Origin: Betaproteobacteria bacterium
Lineage (GTDB): Bacteria > Pseudomonadota > Gammaproteobacteria > Burkholderiales > SG8-41
NCBI GenBank assembly: GCA_029863175.1
Contig: JAOTVX010000033.1
Location: forward strand, 1-42,997
DNA length: 42,997 nt
Direction of reading: 5' to 3'
Shown here: positions 2,947-16,123 of the stretch, piece after piece
Position numbering within the stretch: the stretch's first letter is position 1
Layout of the letters: the number at the start of each line of letters is the position of its first letter
The notes under the pieces: model-generated
The model's database searches: none
What the model was told of the DNA's origin: nothing
The model's input: the letters and a program-made list of their open reading frames with translations, nothing else
Made by a program: the position numbers and the translations under genes

Positions 2947-3258
2947 GGTCTAGCCAGTATTTCACGAAAAGTATCGCGCCAAACCCCGGCTAATGCCACC
3001 TGCGATGGCGGTGTTAGGTGATGCGTGATGAGTGATGAGTTATGGGGTTCGCCCGACGCAGACAGCAGAAAGCAGAAGGATGAAGGATAACCAGGGGCTT
3101 TCCCGGTATGCCACTCTTCGCGTTCTTTGCGGCCTTCGCGGTGAGGCTTTTCTCTTTCTTGGCGCCCTCCGCGGCCTTGGCGGTAGAGCTTTTCTGGTCC
3201 TTCGCGGCCTTAACGTCTTGGCGGTGAAGCTTTACTGCTTTTCATCACCCATCACTCG
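2947..3258. repeat. Intergenic repeat block with heptamer ends and CGCGGCC units
   Basis: Positions about 3009-3050 carry GTGATGR-type heptamers and about 3240-3272 carry their inverse (CATCACCCATCACTCGTCACC), making imperfect terminal inverted repeats. Between them run CGCGGCCTTNGCGGT-like units around 3120-3235. Positions 2970-3000 match 40816-40846 (AGTATCGCGCCAAACCCCG identical, then similar). The stop codon of the next gene lies inside the right arm. No gene is visible. Confidence 0.7.
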
Positions 3259-5202
3259 TCACCTAGCCACACTGGCGCTGCTTGCGAGTTCGGCCACGGG
3301 CTGACTTTCCAGCGGCACTGGGCGCTGGAACTGGTTACCTTGCGCGAACTGGGTGCCCATCTCGGCCAGCAGCTTCAGCACGTCCTGCGTTTCAGCGCCT
3401 TCCGCGATCACCTGTTTGTCGAGACCGTGGGCAAGATCGTTCAGCGCCCGCACGAAAATGCGGCTGCCCTCGTCGCCGGCAAGGTCGCGGATGAAGCTGC
3501 CGTCGATCTTGAGGTAGTCGACGTCGAACCGCTTGAGATAGTAGAACGAGCTGAAACCGGCTCCAAAATCGTCAAGGGCGATCCGGCAACCCAAGTCCTT
3601 GAGCTGGTGGATGAAGGTCAGCGTCACGTCGATTTCTGCCATTGCGGCCGTTTCCGTGATCTCGAAAACGAGCTGGCTCGGGTTTACGTCGCTATCCCGC
3701 AGCAGGGTGAGGAAGCGCCGCATCCAGTCCGGGTCCGACATCGAGATACGCGAAATATTGACGAAGTAGCGCACGCGCTTGCCGATTTGATGGTTTTCGC
3801 GCATGAAGGCAAGAAGCTTTTCCACCACGCGCAGATCAATTTCTTTGATAAGGCCGAGGGATTCGGCGAATTCAAGGAAACTTGCTGGCGGGATGTGGCG
3901 CCCGTCCTCGTCACGAATGCGAGCGAGGATCTCGTAGTGCATCGTCTTGCGATCCTTGAGGCGGACGACCGGCTGCGAGAACAGGACCACGCGGTCATCA
4001 TCCAGCGCGTCACGGAGCGTTTTCGCCCAGTGGATGCGCTTGTGCGTGCTGCGCAGGCTGTCGGAATCCTGGTCGAACAACATGTGACGGTTGCGGCCGA
4101 GGTCCTTCGCCTGATACATCGCAATGTCCACGTTCGACAGGACCGCGAGCACGTCGTTGCCGTGGAAGGGATAGAGCGCGATGCCAGCCGAGGCGGTCAG
4201 GTTGGATATGACCTTGTCCTCGGCCGCCTGGAAACGGTAATGGCGCACGGCGTCGAGCGCGCTCTCGGCCACCTCGATGGCCTCCTTGCGCAGCACGGCT
4301 GGCAAATGGATCGCGAACTCGTCGCCCCCGAGGCGATAGAGCTCGCCGTTGAGGCTGCGCATAAGGTCGCGCAGCACGCTGCCAACGCCGATGATCAGGT
4401 GATCGCCGGTGCGATGCCCGAAGTTGTCGTTGACGTATTTGAAATGATCGACGTCCAGGAAGAGCAGGGCGCCCATGCCGCCTGCCGCCAGGGCTTCCTC
4501 GATGCGGCGCTGCAGGCTGTGCCGGTTGGGAAGGTCGGTAAGCGCATCGTGCAGCGCCAGATGCTCGATGCGCAGGGTCGCAAGATGCTGTTCCGTTATG
4601 TCGCGCGCGGTGCCCCGAATGCCAAGTATCGCGCCGTTGTCGTCGAGCGCAACGCGCGCGTTGATGCCGATCCAGCGATCCTGGTCCTTGCTGGTGACCA
4701 GGTGGCTCACGTAGTTCCTAACCTCGCCGTCGCGCTTGAGCACGGCAAGGAACCGCCGGTTGGAAACATGCGAGGCACCGGACTCGAAATCGAAGAAACA
4801 CCTCCCGATCAGGTCCTTGGGCGTCAGTCCGAAGATTTCATACGCGGCGTTGTTGAGATAGGTAAAGCGTCCCTGGGCGTCCGTTGTCCAGATGAGGTCA
4901 TGCGAGGTCTCGACCACGTCGCGGTAGCGGTTTTCGCTGTCGAGCAGCAGCTGGATGACCCGGCGCTTTTCCGCCAGTGATTTCCGAATGGTTGCGAGCT
5001 CGGCATTGGTTTTGTCGCTGTTGGTGCCGAGTCCCGAAACCGTGAGCCGGTTGATGAGTTCCCGCGAGTAGCGTCGGTGTCCGCCGTCCGTCCGCGAGGC
5101 GATCAATACTCCCTGCTCGTCCCAACGCCGCAGTTTCTGTATCGGAATGCCGAGCATTTCAGAAACTTGCTGAATGCTGCAATGCGTCGATGAATCGCTC
5201 AC
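3259..5202 (-). CDS. MerR-type HTH / PAS / GGDEF / EAL protein, candidate DSF receptor with c-di-GMP output
   Basis: I start this protein at GTG 5202 because AAGGAG lies five bases upstream; an ATG at 5394 is possible but would add a low-complexity basic leader overlapping rpfF. In the 647-residue protein, residues about 8-56 form a MerR-like winged HTH (WDEQGVLIASRTDGGHRRY). A PAS domain follows (about 87-205), then GGDEF with intact GGDEF at 292-296 (synthesis of c-di-GMP; the inhibitory RxxD site reads RSLN). The EAL domain has EIL at 424-426, and Asn482, the FEITE motif, DDFGAG, Lys565, Glu601 and Gln621 kept, so hydrolysis is plausible. PAS-GGDEF-EAL encoded beside rpfF is the layout of the Burkholderia BDSF receptor RpfR. 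Here a DNA-binding domain replaces its N-terminal RpfF-interaction region. The gene lies 160 bases downstream of rpfF. Dual transcriptional and c-di-GMP function is my inference. Confidence 0.85.
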   Translation of the reverse strand: MSDSSTHCSIQQVSEMLGIPIQKLRRWDEQGVLIASRTDGGHRRYSRELINRLTVSGLGTNSDKTNAELATIRKSLAEKRRVIQLLLDSENRYRDVVETSHDLIWTTDAQGRFTYLNNAAYEIFGLTPKDLIGRCFFDFESGASHVSNRRFLAVLKRDGEVRNYVSHLVTSKDQDRWIGINARVALDDNGAILGIRGTARDITEQHLATLRIEHLALHDALTDLPNRHSLQRRIEEALAAGGMGALLFLDVDHFKYVNDNFGHRTGDHLIIGVGSVLRDLMRSLNGELYRLGGDEFAIHLPAVLRKEAIEVAESALDAVRHYRFQAAEDKVISNLTASAGIALYPFHGNDVLAVLSNVDIAMYQAKDLGRNRHMLFDQDSDSLRSTHKRIHWAKTLRDALDDDRVVLFSQPVVRLKDRKTMHYEILARIRDEDGRHIPPASFLEFAESLGLIKEIDLRVVEKLLAFMRENHQIGKRVRYFVNISRISMSDPDWMRRFLTLLRDSDVNPSQLVFEITETAAMAEIDVTLTFIHQLKDLGCRIALDDFGAGFSSFYYLKRFDVDYLKIDGSFIRDLAGDEGSRIFVRALNDLAHGLDKQVIAEGAETQDVLKLLAEMGTQFAQGNQFQRPVPLESQPVAELASSASVAR

Positions 5203-5362
5203 GATGTCTCCTTGCCGCGACTTTGTTGTTTCGGTTTCCGCTTGTCGCTGCGCCAACGATGTGGGCGTCGGCTGAAGTTTATCAGAGCCCGCGCCGAAGT
5301 ACGAGAAAGATACGCGACGCACATCATCTGCGTCCCGCCGCCGTCGTCGCCGGGCAGCCGAG

Positions 5363-6289
5363 TCAGTGAACCTGTTGCGATTCGCCGAGGCCATTTTGGC
5401 GGGTGATCAGACGTTGCATCAACTTGAGATCACGCGGGTTGAGCCGCAGGGCGGTGTCGACCCAGATCCGCACGATATCGAGCAGCTCGTCAAAGTCGAT
5501 GCGGTGCACGCGCCGGCGCGCAGCTGCCAGCGCCGCGAGGCCGTTACGGCTGCGGGCCCGGCGCTTGATCAGGTTGGCCACCTCGGCCTCGCCCTGGCCG
5601 TCATCGACCGCTGCATCGATCACGCCCAGAGAGAGCATCTCGTCCGCGCTGTAGATCTTGCCGTTGGTCAGCACTTCTTCCGCCTGCCGCTGGCCGATGC
5701 GCCGTTCCAGGAAGGAGTACGAGCCCATTCCCGGGAACATGTTGAACAGGATCTCGGGAAAGCCGAAGTGCGCATTTTTCTCGGCGATGATGACATCGCT
5801 CGAGAGGGCGGCCTCGAACCCGCCTCCGAGGCATTCTCCCTGCACCAACGAGATGGTGGTGAGGGGAAGGTCATGGGCTACGTAGTTGCGGTAGAGCACG
5901 TCAATGCACGCGCGGCCATAGCGCGTCAGGCCCGCCCGGTCGCGCTGCTCGATGAGCTGACGGAAAAGGTCGAGGTCCCCGCCAAGATTGAAGACTCCGG
6001 GCGTGCCCGAGGCCAGCACCACGTACTCAATGGGATGATCTTCGTCGTAGCAGCGGATCTGCCCGTTGCCTGCCGCGAGAAAATCGTAGTAACTGCGGAT
6101 GCTCGCGAGCAGCGCCGGGTTGAAGCAGGCGCGCGGCTCGGGCGCCCAGCGTGACCACATCGCGTGCGTCTGCTTGTCAAAGCTGACGCGCAGCTGCGGC
6201 GAGAAGCTGAACTCGAGGCCGCTGTCGATTTGTTGAGGTACTGGATATTGACGCGCTTCAAGTAGTGCGGCAGGCAGGTGCATTTCCAT
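5363..6289 (-). CDS. rpfF: Diffusible signal factor (DSF) synthase, RpfF family
   Basis: This 308-residue crotonase-fold protein aligns along most of its length with Xanthomonas RpfF. Shared blocks include VFNLGGDLDLFRQLI, LVQGECLGGGFEAALS, PEILFNMFPGMGSYSFLERRI, NGKIYSADEML and IWVDTALRLNPRDLKLMQRL. The two glutamates needed in RpfF are present with the same 20-residue spacing (Glu159 and Glu179; Glu141 and Glu161 in Xanthomonas). RpfF converts 3-hydroxyacyl-ACP to the cis-2-enoyl thioester and releases the free cis-2-unsaturated fatty acid signal. The ATG at 6289 has GGGAG upstream. The N-terminus is about 20 residues longer than in Xanthomonas. It is the first gene of a likely two-gene operon with the PAS-GGDEF-EAL gene and diverges from an acyl-ACP synthetase gene. 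An ordinary enoyl-CoA hydratase is unlikely given the RpfF-specific blocks. Confidence 0.92.
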   Translation of the reverse strand: MEMHLPAALLEARQYPVPQQIDSGLEFSFSPQLRVSFDKQTHAMWSRWAPEPRACFNPALLASIRSYYDFLAAGNGQIRCYDEDHPIEYVVLASGTPGVFNLGGDLDLFRQLIEQRDRAGLTRYGRACIDVLYRNYVAHDLPLTTISLVQGECLGGGFEAALSSDVIIAEKNAHFGFPEILFNMFPGMGSYSFLERRIGQRQAEEVLTNGKIYSADEMLSLGVIDAAVDDGQGEAEVANLIKRRARSRNGLAALAAARRRVHRIDFDELLDIVRIWVDTALRLNPRDLKLMQRLITRQNGLGESQQVH

Positions 6290-6375
6290 GATTTTCTCCC
6301 CCAGAGAAAAAGCGGAACGGTCTGGTGCTCTTTAGCTGCTCGAAGTAGATTTAAGGCGAAATCTTCCAAAAAAGC

Positions 6376-6466
6376 AAATCTAACAATTCGATAGATTCTA
6401 TATTTTCGTTGTAAAAACATAGATCAAATATCATACTTCCTGGCAGGGTTAAGTCAAAATCTAACA
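6376..6466. promoter_or_regulatory. Direct repeats AAATCTAACA in the rpfF/aas divergent region
   Basis: The decamer AAATCTAACA occurs at 6376-6385 and again at 6457-6466, one near each divergent promoter region. The first copy also pairs with TAGATT at 6392-6397. These may be operator half-sites, but in AT-rich DNA a chance match is possible. Confidence 0.3.
6397..6427 (-). promoter_or_regulatory. Predicted rpfF promoter with 19-bp spacer and central dyad
   Basis: Reading the minus strand, a -35 TTGATC (6427-6422) and a -10 TATAGA (6402-6397) are separated by 19 bases. The spacer region holds the dyad CTATGTTTT, seven bases, AAAATATAG (6422-6398; 8 of 9 pairs). Long 19-20 bp spacers with an internal dyad are the hallmark of promoters activated by MerR-family proteins, and the downstream gene encodes a MerR-type HTH. 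The leader to the rpfF ATG would be about 100 nt. The elements were read by eye only. Confidence 0.5.
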
Positions 6467-6578
6467 TAGTGTGATATAAGTTTCACGGGGGCGACCTGGT
6501 TCGGGAGCGGGGGCGGGGAACCCTGCTTGACGCGGTTGCGATAAGCAGTTAAAAACCCCGTTTAGGCGTTAACTCTTT

Positions 6579-8729
6579 GTGCTAAAAGTAGTTTTTAAGT
6601 GGCTGCTGCGGGGGCTGCTCCGGATTACCGTTGAGGGCGATGTCCAGGCCCTAAGGGCCGCCCGGCCGCTGATCATCGCGAACCAGGGCTCCGCTCTGGA
6701 CGGGGCCTTGCTGGCGCTGTTTCTCCCGGTGCCGGTGACCGTGGCGGTATCGCCCGATGACCTCCGGCGGCCGGTTGTGCGCTGGCTCATCGGCCGCTTG
6801 CGGCATATCACGGTGGAGCCCGCGCGACCGCTCGAGCTGAAGCGGCTGGTGCGCATGGTCCAGCGCGGTGAAGCCGTCGTTGTGCTTCCCGAGGGCCGGC
6901 CAACCACAACCGGGACCCTGATGAAGGTCTACGACGCGCCGGGTGTCATCGCGGCGCGCTGCGACGCGGACCTCGTCCCAATCGTCATCGAGGGATCGAT
7001 ATACAGCCGCTTCGCAGGGACCGGGGGCAACTTCCCCAAGCGCTGGCTGCCGCGGATTACGCTTCGGATCCTGCCTGCGACCAAGCTTCCGGAAATTCCT
7101 GAGTTGCGGGGACGTGCCCGGCGCAGGCGTCTGGCCGACGAGATGCTGAGAATCATGCAGCGCGCCCAGTTGGTAGCACGGCCGCGTCGCACGCTGTTCG
7201 AGGCCTTCCTCGAGGCGGTTGAGCTGCACGGGCGGCATACCTGCATCATCGAGGACGCGCGCAAGATCCCGGAGACCTACGGCGAGCTGCTGAAGGTCAG
7301 CCTGGCGCTGGGGCGGCTGGCCACCCGCCTCGCGAAAGAGGAGGAGGTGCTCGGCGTCATGATGCCGAACATCAGCACGACCGTGTCCCTGCTGCTCGGC
7401 ATGACGGCGATGCGGCGCATTCCAGCCATCATCAACTACACGGCCGGAGGCGAAGCGATGCGCGCTGCCTGTACAGCGGCCGGCGTCAAGCGGATCATCA
7501 CCTCGCGTCGTTTCCTGCAGATGGCCCGCCTCGAGCGCGCGGCAAAGGCACTGGAGGGTTTCGAGTTCTTATACGTCGAGGACCTGCGCGGGCAGCTCAC
7601 CGTGGCCGATAAGCTGTGGCTCATCGGTTTTGCACTGTGGTGGCCGCGCGCCGCGGTCCCGGCAAGCGACCCCGGCGACTCCGCGACGGTACTCTTCACG
7701 TCCGGGTCCGAGGGGCGTTCCAAAGGCGTGGTCCTGAGTCACGAGGCCATGCTTGCCAACATGGCGCAGATGCGTGCGGTGATCGATTTCGGCCCGAACG
7801 ACAAGTATCTCAATGCGCTGCCGCTCTACCACATCTACGGGCTCATCGCCTGCACGCTCATGCCGCTCATGAGTGGCACGCGGCTATTTCTTTACACATC
7901 ACCGCTGCACTACCGCGTTATTCCGGAAATCGCGTATACGCGCGACTGCACCTATATTTTTGGCACGAGCACATTCTTAGGGCACTACGGGCGCCAGGCT
8001 CATCCCTACGACTTCTATCGTGCCCGCGTCGTGGTTTCGGGCGGGGAAAAACTCGACGCGGATGTCGCGCAGTTGTGGATGGAGAAGTTCGGGCTGAGGA
8101 TCATGGAGGGCTACGGCGCGACCGAGTGTGGTCCTGCGATGGCCCTCAACACGCCGCTGTCCTATCGCAAGGGAACGGTCGGCCGCTTCCTGCCCGGTCT
8201 CGAATATCGACTCCTGCCGGTCCCGGGCATCGATCGTGGCGGCGCGCTTCACGTGCGTAGCCCCAACCTCATGCGCGGCTATTACCTCTATGAGGAGCCG
8301 GGCGTGCTGCAGCCGATGAAGTCGGACCTCGGTCCGGGCTGGTACACGACCGGGGACGTGGTCGAGGTGGATGAGGATGGCTACGTCACGATTCTCGGGC
8401 GCGTGAAACGCTTTGCCAAGATTGCCGGAGAGATGATCTCGCTCGAGGTGGTCGAGCGTATCGCCGCGCTCGCGGCTCCAGGCCAACGCCATGCGGCAAC
8501 GATTGAGCACGTGGCTGCGGGCGGCGAGAGCACGGTGCTGTTTACGACTGACCCTGCGCTCGACCGGATTACCCTGCTCAAGGCCGCGCGGGAGCTCGGG
8601 GCGCCGGAGCTGGCCGTGGCCAAGCGCATCGTTCATATGGCCGAGCTGCCCGTCCTCGGCAGCGGCAAGACCGACTACGTCGGACTCAAGGCCATGGCCG
8701 AGTCGCATCGGCAGGCCGGCACGCCTTAA
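6579..8729 (+). CDS. aas: Aas-type acyl-ACP synthetase with inactivated acyltransferase domain
   Basis: The 716-residue protein aligns end to end with E. coli Aas (719 aa), and the GTG at 6579 matches its first residue. The N-terminal PlsC-like domain (about 1-190) keeps PEGRPTTTG, but the catalytic HX4D histidine, position 36 in E. coli Aas, is Gln here (NQGSALDG, codon CAG at 6684-6686). Loss of 2-acylglycerophosphoethanolamine acyltransferase activity is therefore predicted. The C-terminal AMP-forming synthetase looks intact: TSGSEGRSKG near residue 375, GYGATE, WYTTGD, KRFAKIAGE and the final GSGKTD. It should load free fatty acids onto ACP. It diverges from rpfF across 289 bases. RpfB, an acyl ligase for DSF turnover, is encoded next to rpfF in Xanthomonas, so a recycling role here is a reasonable inference. 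No clear Shine-Dalgarno sequence precedes the GTG. Confidence 0.9.
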   Translation: MLKVVFKWLLRGLLRITVEGDVQALRAARPLIIANQGSALDGALLALFLPVPVTVAVSPDDLRRPVVRWLIGRLRHITVEPARPLELKRLVRMVQRGEAVVVLPEGRPTTTGTLMKVYDAPGVIAARCDADLVPIVIEGSIYSRFAGTGGNFPKRWLPRITLRILPATKLPEIPELRGRARRRRLADEMLRIMQRAQLVARPRRTLFEAFLEAVELHGRHTCIIEDARKIPETYGELLKVSLALGRLATRLAKEEEVLGVMMPNISTTVSLLLGMTAMRRIPAIINYTAGGEAMRAACTAAGVKRIITSRRFLQMARLERAAKALEGFEFLYVEDLRGQLTVADKLWLIGFALWWPRAAVPASDPGDSATVLFTSGSEGRSKGVVLSHEAMLANMAQMRAVIDFGPNDKYLNALPLYHIYGLIACTLMPLMSGTRLFLYTSPLHYRVIPEIAYTRDCTYIFGTSTFLGHYGRQAHPYDFYRARVVVSGGEKLDADVAQLWMEKFGLRIMEGYGATECGPAMALNTPLSYRKGTVGRFLPGLEYRLLPVPGIDRGGALHVRSPNLMRGYYLYEEPGVLQPMKSDLGPGWYTTGDVVEVDEDGYVTILGRVKRFAKIAGEMISLEVVERIAALAAPGQRHAATIEHVAAGGESTVLFTTDPALDRITLLKAARELGAPELAVAKRIVHMAELPVLGSGKTDYVGLKAMAESHRQAGTP

Positions 8730-13451: not shown

Positions 13452-13532
13452 CAATGAGGATCATTAACCTCCTGTTTTTTCTTTAATATGCTCGCTCACG
13501 AGCGGAACGCGAGCAGTCCTGGAGACCAAAAC

Positions 13533-13997
13533 GTGGCCATTACTCTGACCGTAAACGGCAAGAAGCACGAGGTAGCCGCAGATCCGGAAACACCGCTGCT
13601 CTACGTCCTGCGCAATGATCTTAAGCTGAAGGGCGCGCGCTATGGCTGCGGGCTTGGACAATGCGGCGCCTGCACCGTGATCATCGACGGCGAAGCCGTC
13701 CAGTCATGCGATGTGCCGGCATCGGCCGTGACCGGCAAGGCGATCACGACGATCGAGGGCATCGCCCGGAACGGGAAGCTGCACCCGTTGCAGGAGGCGT
13801 TCATCGCCGAGCAGGCCGCGCAGTGCGGCTATTGCGCAACCGGCATCATCATGGCGGCCAAGGCCTTGCTCGACGCGAATCCAAAGGCGACCGAGAGTGA
13901 GATTCGCACCGCGCTCAAGGGCAATCTGTGCCGCTGCGGCACGCACCAACGCATCCTGCACGCCATTCAGCGCGTGGCGAAGGAGCTGAGACAATGA
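13533..13997 (+). CDS. [2Fe-2S] subunit of a xanthine-oxidase-family hydroxylase (IorA type)
   Basis: The 154-residue protein has the two [2Fe-2S] domains of this subunit: Cys39, Cys44, Cys47 and Cys59 in the plant-ferredoxin-like half, then Cys98, Cys101, Cys133 and Cys135 in the helical half (QCGYC, LCRC). I start at GTG 13533, with GGAGA seven bases upstream, giving the usual ITLTVNGKKHEV beginning. The stop overlaps the ATG of the large subunit by four bases. It transfers electrons from the molybdenum centre of its partner. Isoquinoline 1-oxidoreductase, nicotinate dehydrogenase and aldehyde oxidases share this design, so the substrate is open. Confidence 0.9.
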   Translation: MAITLTVNGKKHEVAADPETPLLYVLRNDLKLKGARYGCGLGQCGACTVIIDGEAVQSCDVPASAVTGKAITTIEGIARNGKLHPLQEAFIAEQAAQCGYCATGIIMAAKALLDANPKATESEIRTALKGNLCRCGTHQRILHAIQRVAKELRQ

Positions 13998-16123
13998 GTA
14001 CAGGGGAAACCACGCCGCGCAAGCTGCCGGGCAGCCTCAATACGAACCGCCAGCTCGACCGCTGGCTGCGAATCAATCGTGAGGGTACCGTTTCCGTTTT
14101 TCCGGGCAAGGTGGAAATCGGGCAGGGCATCCTCACGGCGCTCTCCCAGATCGTTGCCGAGGAGCTGGACGTTGCGCTGGGGCGCATTCGGCTCGCGCCC
14201 ACGGACACGAGCTACAGCCCCGATGAGGGGATGACTTCCGGAAGCCAGTCCATTACCGACGGCGGCGCCGCGCTGCGTTACGCCGCCGCGGAAGCCCGTG
14301 ATTTGCTCATGCAGCGGGCCGCCGCGCAGCTCGGCGTCTCTCTCGAGCAGCTTTCCGTTACCGACGGCACTGTGACGGCGCGCAGCGGCGGCAGCGTGAC
14401 CTATTGGGATATCGCGACGGACGAATTGCTCGCGCGCGAGGCGACCGGGCAGGTCCCGCCCAAACCGGCTGCGCAGCATAGCGTGATTGGCACGGCGGTT
14501 CCCCGCCACGATATTCCGGCAAAGGTGGGCGGCACGCCGAGCTACGTCCATGACCTCGATTTACCAGGCATGCTCCATGGACGTGTGGCCCGCCCGCCGA
14601 GTTATGGCGCGAAGCTCGCAGCGCTGGACGAGGCCGAAGTGCGTGCGATGCCAGGGGTCGTGGCAGTCGTGCGCGACGGCAGCTTCGTGGGTGTGGTCAC
14701 GGAGCGCGAGGACCAGGCCATACGGACGCTGCAGCGGATCAAACGGATTGCGCGCTGGGACGAGCGGGCCACGTTGCCGGAGAACACGAATCCGCGTTTC
14801 CTTCTGAAGGAGGTGAGCGAAGACGAGGTGATCAGCGAAAAGAGCGACAAGGCGGCGGCCGGGCAGGCCGCCAAAACGCTCGAGGCCGAATACACGCGGC
14901 CTTACATAGCGCACGCAACGATCGGCCCTTCGTGCGCGCTGGCATCCTTCGATAAGGGACGCTTCACGATCTGGACGCACAGTCAGGGCATCTACCCGCT
15001 GCGGAATGATCTTTCCAGGGTGCTGGCGGTGGAGCCGGAACGCATTACCGTTATTCATTGCGACGGCGCTGGCTGCTACGGGCACAACGGCGCCGACGAC
15101 GTGGCCCTCGATGCGGCTTTGCTTGCGCGCGCGGCGCCGGGGCGCCCGGTGCGGGTGCAATGGATGCGTGAGGACGAATTCATGTGGGAGCCGTATGGAC
15201 CGGCCATGGTGGTGAAGCTCAAGGCCTCCCTCGACACGGACGGCAACATTGTCGACTGGGTGGAAGATATCTGGAGCAACTCCCACAGCACGCGGCCAGG
15301 CGCGCAGAAAGGCGTCAACCTGATCGCGGCCTGGCACCTTGCGCAGCCGCACGAGCCCTCACCGCCGCGCAATCCGCCGCTGCCGGGTGGCGGCAGTCAT
15401 CGCAATGCGATTCCGATCTACGAGTTCCCGAACCAGCGCGTCACCAATCGTTTGATCAAGCGCATGCCGCTGCGTGTATCCGCGATGCGCGCGCTCGGCG
15501 CCACAGCGAACGTGTTTGCGATCGAGTCCTTCATGGATGAGCTGGCGGCGGCGGCGGGCGCGGATCCCGTCGAATTCCGGCTGCGGCACCTGAAGGATCC
15601 CCGCGCGCGTGCGGTCATCGAAATGGTCGCGGCGAAGGCAGGGTGGAAGAAGGGGGAGAAGGGGGACGGCTCACGCGGCCGCGGGGTCGGCTTCGCCCGC
15701 TACAAGAACGGAGCGTGCTACGTCGCGGTCATCGTCGAAGTGGATGTCGGCAACGAGATTGGCGTGAAGCGAGCGTGGGCGGCGATCGATGCCGGGCTGG
15801 TGATCAACCCCGACGGTCTCATCAATCAGACCGAGGGCGGACTCATTCAGACCGTGAGCTGGGCGCTCAAGGAGGCCGTGCAGTTCGACCGCGAGCGGGT
15901 GCTCACGCAGACCTGGGACGATTACCCCATATTGACCTTCGAGGAGATCCCGCACGTCGAAGTGACGATAATCAACCGGCCCGAGTTGCCGCCGCTGGGT
16001 GCGGGCGAGGGGGCCCAGGGTCCTACTGCCTCGGCCATTGCGAACGCGGTATTCAATGCGATGGGTGCGCGGCTGCGCGATCTGCCGTTTACGCGCGACA
16101 AGGTGATTTCCGCGCTGGCCTAA
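13994..16123 (+). CDS. Molybdopterin-binding hydroxylase large subunit (IorB type)
   Basis: The 709-residue protein begins at an ATGA overlap with the iron-sulfur subunit gene. It follows the isoquinoline 1-oxidoreductase beta-subunit pattern, with an early molybdopterin segment (FPGKVEIGQGILTALSQIVAEEL, TSGSQSITDGG) before the a/b hammerhead domain (GGTPSYVHDLDLPGMLHGRV). Later come GAGCYGHNGADDVALDAALL and RMPLRVSAMRALGA. The catalytic glutamate next to the Mo ion is at 672 (LGAGEGAQGP). There is no FAD subunit, so electrons probably go to a cytochrome or quinone. No Tat signal is obvious at the N-terminus. It should hydroxylate an N-heterocycle or aldehyde with water-derived oxygen; which one cannot be read. 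Confidence 0.88.
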   Translation: MSTGETTPRKLPGSLNTNRQLDRWLRINREGTVSVFPGKVEIGQGILTALSQIVAEELDVALGRIRLAPTDTSYSPDEGMTSGSQSITDGGAALRYAAAEARDLLMQRAAAQLGVSLEQLSVTDGTVTARSGGSVTYWDIATDELLAREATGQVPPKPAAQHSVIGTAVPRHDIPAKVGGTPSYVHDLDLPGMLHGRVARPPSYGAKLAALDEAEVRAMPGVVAVVRDGSFVGVVTEREDQAIRTLQRIKRIARWDERATLPENTNPRFLLKEVSEDEVISEKSDKAAAGQAAKTLEAEYTRPYIAHATIGPSCALASFDKGRFTIWTHSQGIYPLRNDLSRVLAVEPERITVIHCDGAGCYGHNGADDVALDAALLARAAPGRPVRVQWMREDEFMWEPYGPAMVVKLKASLDTDGNIVDWVEDIWSNSHSTRPGAQKGVNLIAAWHLAQPHEPSPPRNPPLPGGGSHRNAIPIYEFPNQRVTNRLIKRMPLRVSAMRALGATANVFAIESFMDELAAAAGADPVEFRLRHLKDPRARAVIEMVAAKAGWKKGEKGDGSRGRGVGFARYKNGACYVAVIVEVDVGNEIGVKRAWAAIDAGLVINPDGLINQTEGGLIQTVSWALKEAVQFDRERVLTQTWDDYPILTFEEIPHVEVTIINRPELPPLGAGEGAQGPTASAIANAVFNAMGARLRDLPFTRDKVISALA

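Follow-up and report, generated by a model that had tools for sequence, protein, structure and literature searches.

Perception of signals of the diffusible signal factor (DSF) family has been described to follow two core pathways, RpfC/RpfG and RpfR, to which accessory sensors are added (review PMC4504480; this and the other papers are cited from the accessible parts of their text). RpfR carries an N-terminal FI domain and its gene is convergent with rpfF (PMC6361424); it acts also through the transcription factor BerB (PMC9684580). Escherichia coli has no DSF synthase (PMC6361424), and its RpfR homologue PdeR controls the MerR-like factor MlrA, while its PdeL protein, a helix-turn-helix (HTH) joined to an EAL domain, binds an imperfect palindrome and autoregulates (PMC5052742). 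The TetR family regulator RdmA of Pseudomonas nitroreducens is a DNA-binding protein that responds to DSF and represses DSF degradation genes (PMC9973270). Here we examined an rpfF locus within a stretch of 42,997 nucleotides from a Betaproteobacteria bacterium (contig JAOTVX010000033.1), hereafter the window, where rpfF is followed by a gene coding for a MerR-PAS-GGDEF-EAL protein, called the receptor for its predicted role. Judged from sequence, we estimate at roughly 0.6 the probability that this pair belongs to a self-contained one-component DSF-family quorum-sensing circuit composed of a synthase, a receptor acting as trigger enzyme, an operator and a regulon.

Pairing of rpfF with a MerR-PAS-GGDEF-EAL gene

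On the minus strand, rpfF precedes the 647-codon receptor gene by 160 bp according to our sequence reading (Table 1). A 711-aa open reading frame (ORF) starting at 5394 overlaps rpfF and is less likely to be the receptor frame.

The product of rpfF is an RpfF-type crotonase (NCBIfam PRK08788, 346.7 bits for a cut-off of 177) that matches PDB 3m6m, an RpfF which we take to be that of Xanthomonas, with an E value of 1.7e-53. As claimed in an earlier note on this DNA, both catalytic glutamates are kept (Glu159 and Glu179), and their spacing of 20 is that of the 3m6m RpfF fragment. Four solved chains match under 1e-40 (3m6m, 7zq7, 5fus and 6dgn) and all are RpfF or RpfF-like, 3m6m and 6dgn being RpfF and 5fus the Burkholderia RpfF of PMC6361424. 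The score of 208 bits against the NCBIfam RpfF equivalog NF053515 is under the cut-off of 550; this weighs little against function because the rpfF products of L010 (269 bits) and L016 (233 bits), two loci where rpfF lies beside RpfC/RpfG-type genes, likewise miss it. From its family, the enzyme is predicted to make a cis-2-unsaturated fatty acid.

All four domains of the receptor (residues 1-647) were matched above Pfam cut-offs, bearing out the architecture read in the earlier note, and the HTH and PAS folds expected there both appear in an AlphaFold2 model (49-row alignment, mean predicted local distance difference test 77, predicted template modelling score 0.49), together with a long helix at residues 62-97. 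Since fold searches with this model cover chiefly residues 85-215, the MerR assignment is drawn from Pfam and from sequence similarity to solved chains, which include TipA (5e-4), CarH and CueR. Pfam, alignment and model together reveal the features of the MerR family, namely a winged HTH, a GGxRxY wing and a probable dimer helix. The MerR-PAS architecture is not due to chance, since a search with residues 1-212 yielded 913 proteins (of 3558 candidates) at E<=1e-10; the best 120 of these all carry PF00376 together with a PAS family. An alignment of 120 rows was made from P0001 and 119 of these 120, P0017 (357 aa) being omitted as short. KLRRWD, GGHRRY and GGDEF are invariant in it, and E424, N482, E514, D544, D545, K565, E601 and Q621, which we take to be the catalytic EAL positions, are at least 97% conserved, values that are flattered because the rows are the closest matches. 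As judged from the alignment, the catalytic motifs of the GGDEF and EAL domains are intact; no RxxD I-site was read ahead of GGDEF in the receptor. Fold searches with the PAS model rank LOV and general PAS structures at the top. A light-sensing PAS was set aside, the receptor PAS being devoid of the LOV motif NCRFLQ; a haem PAS was set aside as well.

We surveyed a sample of 399 genomes of the order to which G001 belongs, with a threshold of E<=1e-40 for rpfF. An rpfF gene was matched in 72 genomes (74 places) and the MerR-PAS region in 46; in G153, G279 and G219, the match misses the MerR region wholly or in part. An rpfF gene lies upstream and on the same strand in 38 of the 46 receptor places, with gaps of 15-549 nt; none was found at this threshold in the remaining 8 genomes. 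The proposed pairing proved conserved: the receptor adjoins rpfF at 37/38 copies having at least 54% identity versus 1/36 copies below 54%. At the 38th copy (G356), the receptor is present with a MerR/PAS deletion, either real or assembly-derived. In G223, rpfF is reduced to a remnant and the receptor is interrupted by stops, so the pair appears to decay jointly. Five genomes (G291, G038, G320, G093 and G084) carry the receptor without rpfF. Open receptor frames were seen at L132-L135 and L137, in genomes without rpfF and with no nearby dyad (see below); these may be listeners. G153 encodes an RpfF at 44% identity and a PAS-GGDEF-EAL protein with a weak, sub-cut-off HTH_17 match (E 0.006). A reordered relative of the locus was observed at L139 (2975-7821), with rpfF (44%), a PAS-GGDEF-EAL gene with weak HTH_17, then aas.

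A contig search (best 80 of 143 confirmed loci) found the receptor directly downstream of rpfF in eight of the nine loci closest to the window. At the ninth, L004, nuo genes are downstream and the assembly has no MerR-PAS match. The contig of L004 bears the doubtful label Bordetella parapertussis; it is a piece of a metagenome-assembled genome, and its rpfF groups with the environmental clade. In a midpoint-rooted RpfF tree of 94 rows, one branch (97/99) joins 21 paired rows with L004, L138, L139 and L015; the L139, L015 and Burkholderia rows are long, so their placement is unsure. Six other scanned rpfF loci (L010, L015, L016, L021, L036, L053) carry a hybrid histidine kinase gene (RpfC-type) convergent to rpfF, with one gene in between at L015; REC-HD (RpfG-type) genes occur at L010 and L016, and a REC-PAS-GGDEF-EAL gene at L021. 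Because these six loci carry an RpfC-type kinase, replacement of an RpfC/RpfG-type system by the MerR protein would be a likelier history than replacement of RpfR. Profile scans found no hybrid kinase or HD-GYP regulator among the rpfF neighbours at the window locus; beyond the pair, these include an aas-like and a metE-like gene.

A dyad at the rpfF promoter and its further copies

The rpfF upstream regions share a 23-bp dyad, new here, of ideal form AAATCTAWCAA-N-TTGWTAGATTT. Scored with a position weight matrix (PWM; 14 sites picked by eye in these loci, made symmetric), it reaches at least 11 bits in 34/37 paired upstream regions, 30 of which attain 15 (10 of the 37 are in the training set). 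None of 68 rpfF loci without a receptor match, L004 included, does so (best 10.1), although some of these control contigs end shortly after rpfF; from the 71 loci L010-L080, four with missing upstream DNA or an unclear start were omitted. An unsymmetric PWM gave two matches of at least 14 (best 14.5) in the 710,263 bases of L010-L080. A sample of 369 genomes of the class yielded no independent lineage in which the dyad could be tested: of six MerR-PAS matches, that of G001 alone covers the MerR part in full, that of G440 starts at residue 41 and the remaining four at 71 or 73. Sites with the exact pattern were found at 22/38 rpfF copies; one lies 110 bp upstream of rpfF in G032, which is outside the 37.

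In 20/22 aligned loci (not in L004 and L005), the last two bases of the dyad are the TT of a TTG, the TTG being present in 20/20 loci with a site, and the -10-like columns show T 17, A 18 and T 18 of 20, usually at a 17-bp spacer. The lux box is located at the -35 element of the promoter driving the synthase gene, whereas the classical MerR operator lies within a promoter spacer of 19-20 bp. The position of the rpfF dyad, upstream of the -35, is that of a lux box and not that of a MerR spacer operator, and the 17-bp spacer led us to reject the classical MerR spacer mechanism. Direct transcription control by the receptor had been put forward in the earlier note, with DNA binding at 6376-6427, a stretch that starts exactly at the dyad; the dyad and its further copies make such control likely. 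A weak second dyad lies before the divergent aas-like gene in the window (Table 1); at L001, no second dyad scoring at least 14 was found.

The exact pattern occurs in 33/46 receptor genomes versus 10/353 others, one of which is G356 (Fisher p 7e-29), and a reversed control pattern yielded three matches. Away from rpfF, 50 sites were counted in 27 genomes (G356 included). They are more symmetric, at 7.6/11 pairs versus 5.9/11 for nine sites of receptor-less genomes (p 4e-4), bearing in mind that kin share sites, which are not independent. We inspected 40 loci representing 41 of the 50 extra sites, with rough gene calls based on ORF length and GC content at third codon positions. ABC transporters of the type I secretion kind (Pfam) are encoded 48-180 bp from a site in G141, G001 and G074; the best NCBIfam model of those of G141 and G001 is HlyB-type, under its cut-off. 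A haem-oxygenase-like enzyme is encoded 43-158 bp from a site in G157 and G009 (PF14518 scan) and in G223 and G393 (by eye). GGDEF-EAL genes (G329, G045, G099) and a PAS-GAF-HD_5 gene (G141) are located 140-173 bp from a site. In G329, a site is 191 bp from two response regulator genes and a CheW gene, which look pilGHI-like by eye, and is flanked by a FIST gene on the opposite side. In G141, a dyad lies 119 bp before the luxR of a luxR-luxI pair (L188 3218-4954, Pfam), such that DSF may command an N-acyl homoserine lactone (AHL) circuit. TTG follows the dyad, in the direction of the gene, at 10/13 named targets (pilG being counted for G329). Many extra sites adjoin genes without a Pfam match or have no clear target; no clear downstream gene was seen at the sites of L185, L187, L193, L198, L201, L206, L210 and L219. 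At L195, L200, L216 and L218, in four genomes, the dyad lies between a large gene and the gene of a haem-oxygenase-like iron enzyme behind it; at L195 and L216, Pfam assigns PAS-GGDEF-EAL to the large gene.

Table 1. Features of the rpfF locus, in window coordinates.
Feature	Position	Strand	Remarks
RpfF-type crotonase (rpfF)	5363..6289	-	308 aa, Glu159/Glu179; PRK08788, PDB 3m6m
MerR-PAS-GGDEF-EAL protein, predicted receptor/regulator	3259..5202	-	647 aa, GTG start at 5202, AAGGAG just upstream
MerR winged-helix domain, residues 8-55	5038..5181	-	KLRRWD and GGHRRY; PF00376 residues 9-45, 1.5e-11
Long helix, probably for dimerisation, residues 62-97	4912..5019	-	AlphaFold2 model, low confidence in parts
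PAS domain, residues 92-202	4597..4929	-	Pfam 6.2e-15; PAS/LOV fold in fold searches
GGDEF domain, residues 216-372	4087..4557	-	GGDEF motif at 292-296; Pfam 6.2e-39
EAL domain, residues 394-628	3319..4023	-	ExLxR at 424-428; Pfam 8.5e-68
Predicted operator, 23-bp dyad upstream of rpfF	6376..6398	.	GAATCTATCGAATTGTTAGATTT on - strand
-35-like TTGCTT	6372..6377	-	2-bp overlap with dyad
-10-like TTAAAT	6349..6354	-	17-bp spacer
Weak second dyad, possible operator of the divergent aas-like gene	6457..6479	+	about 100 bp before the gene; score 15.6
aas-like acyltransferase/acyl-ACP synthetase, divergent neighbour	6579..8729	+	PRK08043 828.5 bits, just under cut-off 886

Downstream of the receptor gene, the window contains three 21-nt imperfect direct repeats spaced by 41-42 bp (3134-3237). 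Farther away (13488-16123), genes for 2Fe-2S and molybdopterin-type oxidoreductases were noticed by eye in the ORF list.

Proposed circuit and rival explanations

In the circuit that we propose, RpfF would use acyl-acyl carrier protein (acyl-ACP) to make its product, and the cytoplasmic receptor would bind this signal through its PAS domain, a fatty-acid sensing role suggested by linkage. Binding would alter the dimer, the cyclic di-GMP (c-di-GMP) turnover by GGDEF and EAL, and the affinity for DNA of the MerR domain, the predicted HTH target being the dyad beside the -35 box at rpfF and at the promoters of a small regulon. Uniting a putative trigger phosphodiesterase with its own transcription factor in one chain, the receptor would most likely be an activator, leading to lux-like autoinduction. 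The Aas-like enzyme probably salvages fatty acids released by RpfF. In RpfR-bearing bacteria, which lack RpfB, the FI domain is proposed to restrain RpfF (PMC6361424). Since FI is absent here and an aas match lies upstream of rpfF and divergent in 20/22 clade loci (partial match in L138 and L142), the Aas-like enzyme may recycle these fatty acids and stand in for RpfB, a possible answer to how the loose thioesterase activity of RpfF is coped with without FI.

Several observations weigh against this circuit. Kinship among the receptor genomes means that phylogeny confounds the comparison of genomes with and without the receptor, and many of the extra sites are copies shared between orthologous loci. 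The training sites of the PWM had been picked by eye in the very loci that it scores; three paired genomes (G005, G157, G393) have no dyad of at least 11 bits at rpfF, and those of G400, G375, G349 and G165 reach only 11-13 bits. The spacer of 17 bp, against 19-20 bp in classical MerR promoters, makes the sign of control less sure. Repression with release by signal, in which an unliganded or c-di-GMP-free dimer would block PrpfF at the dyad in a CarH-like fashion, is the main rival to signal-dependent activation, and one that we hold to be rather unlikely. The solved MerR relatives matched include CarH, and the dyad overlaps the -35-like box in 20/20 loci with a site, but the overlap is only 2 bp, and the -35 or -10 box is poor at several of the promoters, as it is at activator-dependent promoters. 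A precedent for such repression is BluR, a MerR-like repressor controlled by an EAL protein (PMC3509220).

The dyad could instead be the site of a different transcription factor from this lineage, with the receptor MerR domain binding elsewhere or mediating protein contacts only. The kinship of the receptor genomes and the missing site of G005 would fit, as would the five rpfF-less receptors listed above, which keep their HTH with no nearby site scoring at least 14. Yet the dyad tracks the receptor at rpfF, being absent from all 68 rpfF loci without a receptor match, L004 among them; its length and symmetry suit a MerR dimer, and several targets are c-di-GMP or quorum-sensing genes, making this explanation improbable. 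We regard as slightly more improbable still that the crotonase is no DSF synthase and that the pair responds to a different acyl or redox cue, its linkage reflecting fatty-acid metabolism with aas. The missed equivalog cut-off and the resemblance of the PAS model to LOV and general PAS folds would agree with it; the two glutamates and their spacing, the identity of the four solved chains and the sub-cut-off scores of relatives beside RpfC/RpfG-type genes argue the other way.

If the proposed circuit is correct, signal, c-di-GMP and promoter would be linked in a single polypeptide, making the trigger-enzyme idea testable without partner proteins, and the dyad would yield a regulon open to immediate testing. 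Lineages with an intact receptor that lost rpfF could be natural listeners. The setting is a group of environmental betaproteobacteria in which the shared dyad suggests control of the operon itself and of other group-behaviour genes.

Relationship to known systems

As in the RpfF/RpfR systems of Burkholderia and Cronobacter, rpfF is found beside a gene for a PAS-GGDEF-EAL protein, and the core is shared by Pfam and by BLASTP with E. coli PdeR (31% over 548 columns). In contrast, the locus described here has a MerR domain, tandem genes, its own dyad and an aas-like gene. The earlier note placed the receptor in the stead of RpfR, a reading that was not supported. No FI domain was found by BLASTP, the N-terminus being MerR and PdeR residues 1-115 remaining unaligned beyond chance pieces, with alignment solely from PdeR residue 116 onward. 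The genes are never convergent, the receptor lying downstream on the same strand in 38/38 genomes with both. Kinship of the PAS domain to that of RpfR, set as a test beforehand, was not upheld either (E 0.52 with the solved RpfR PAS, 6dgg), so in sequence it is not detectably RpfR-like, which counts against the proposed circuit as well. Membership of the RpfR family was rejected on these grounds. Among the 50 VIA-align entries listed, 6dgg did not appear, which we do not count as evidence against. In the 31% alignment, the RpfR ligand residue N202 corresponds to the invariant N181, S169 to S144, N172 to S147, Y183 to R162 and R187 to S166; this mapping assumes that E. coli PdeR numbering equals that of Cronobacter RpfR and is unsure, E. 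coli having Leu at 187. The lack of a match for Y183 and R187 in this unsure mapping is a further point against the proposed circuit.

The RpfF/RpfC/RpfG system of Xanthomonas and others has a related rpfF but operates as a two-component phosphorelay whose receptor has no DNA-binding domain. The E. coli PdeR-DgcM-MlrA trigger enzyme module consists of separate proteins, whereas the receptor has MerR in the same chain. PdeL differs by its LuxR-type HTH, and the accessible text of PMC5052742 mentions no PAS, GGDEF or signal synthase for it. RpfR, PdeR and PdeL are nonetheless precedents for PAS-GGDEF-EAL or HTH-EAL proteins that influence transcription while turning over c-di-GMP (PMC9684580, PMC5052742). 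RdmA is, like the proposed receptor, a DNA-binding regulator responsive to DSF, but it is of the TetR family and targets DSF degradation genes.

The accessible text of PMC4504480 describes no DNA-binding core DSF receptor, and literature text searches, whose coverage excluded most subscription papers and bioRxiv preprints, found no MerR-PAS-GGDEF-EAL DSF receptor. A parallel in logic is LuxI/LuxR, where a synthase is likewise accompanied by a DNA-binding receptor and the synthase promoter has a dyad at its -35 element, although the protein families are unrelated and the receptor here includes c-di-GMP enzymes. The chances lean slightly towards a third core DSF architecture, a one-component circuit with LuxI/LuxR logic. 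Its receptor would combine the roles of fatty-acid sensor, c-di-GMP enzyme and transcription factor; it would have an operator of its own, and its regulon would extend to c-di-GMP enzymes, to type I secretion and, in one genome, to a luxR-luxI pair of the AHL kind.

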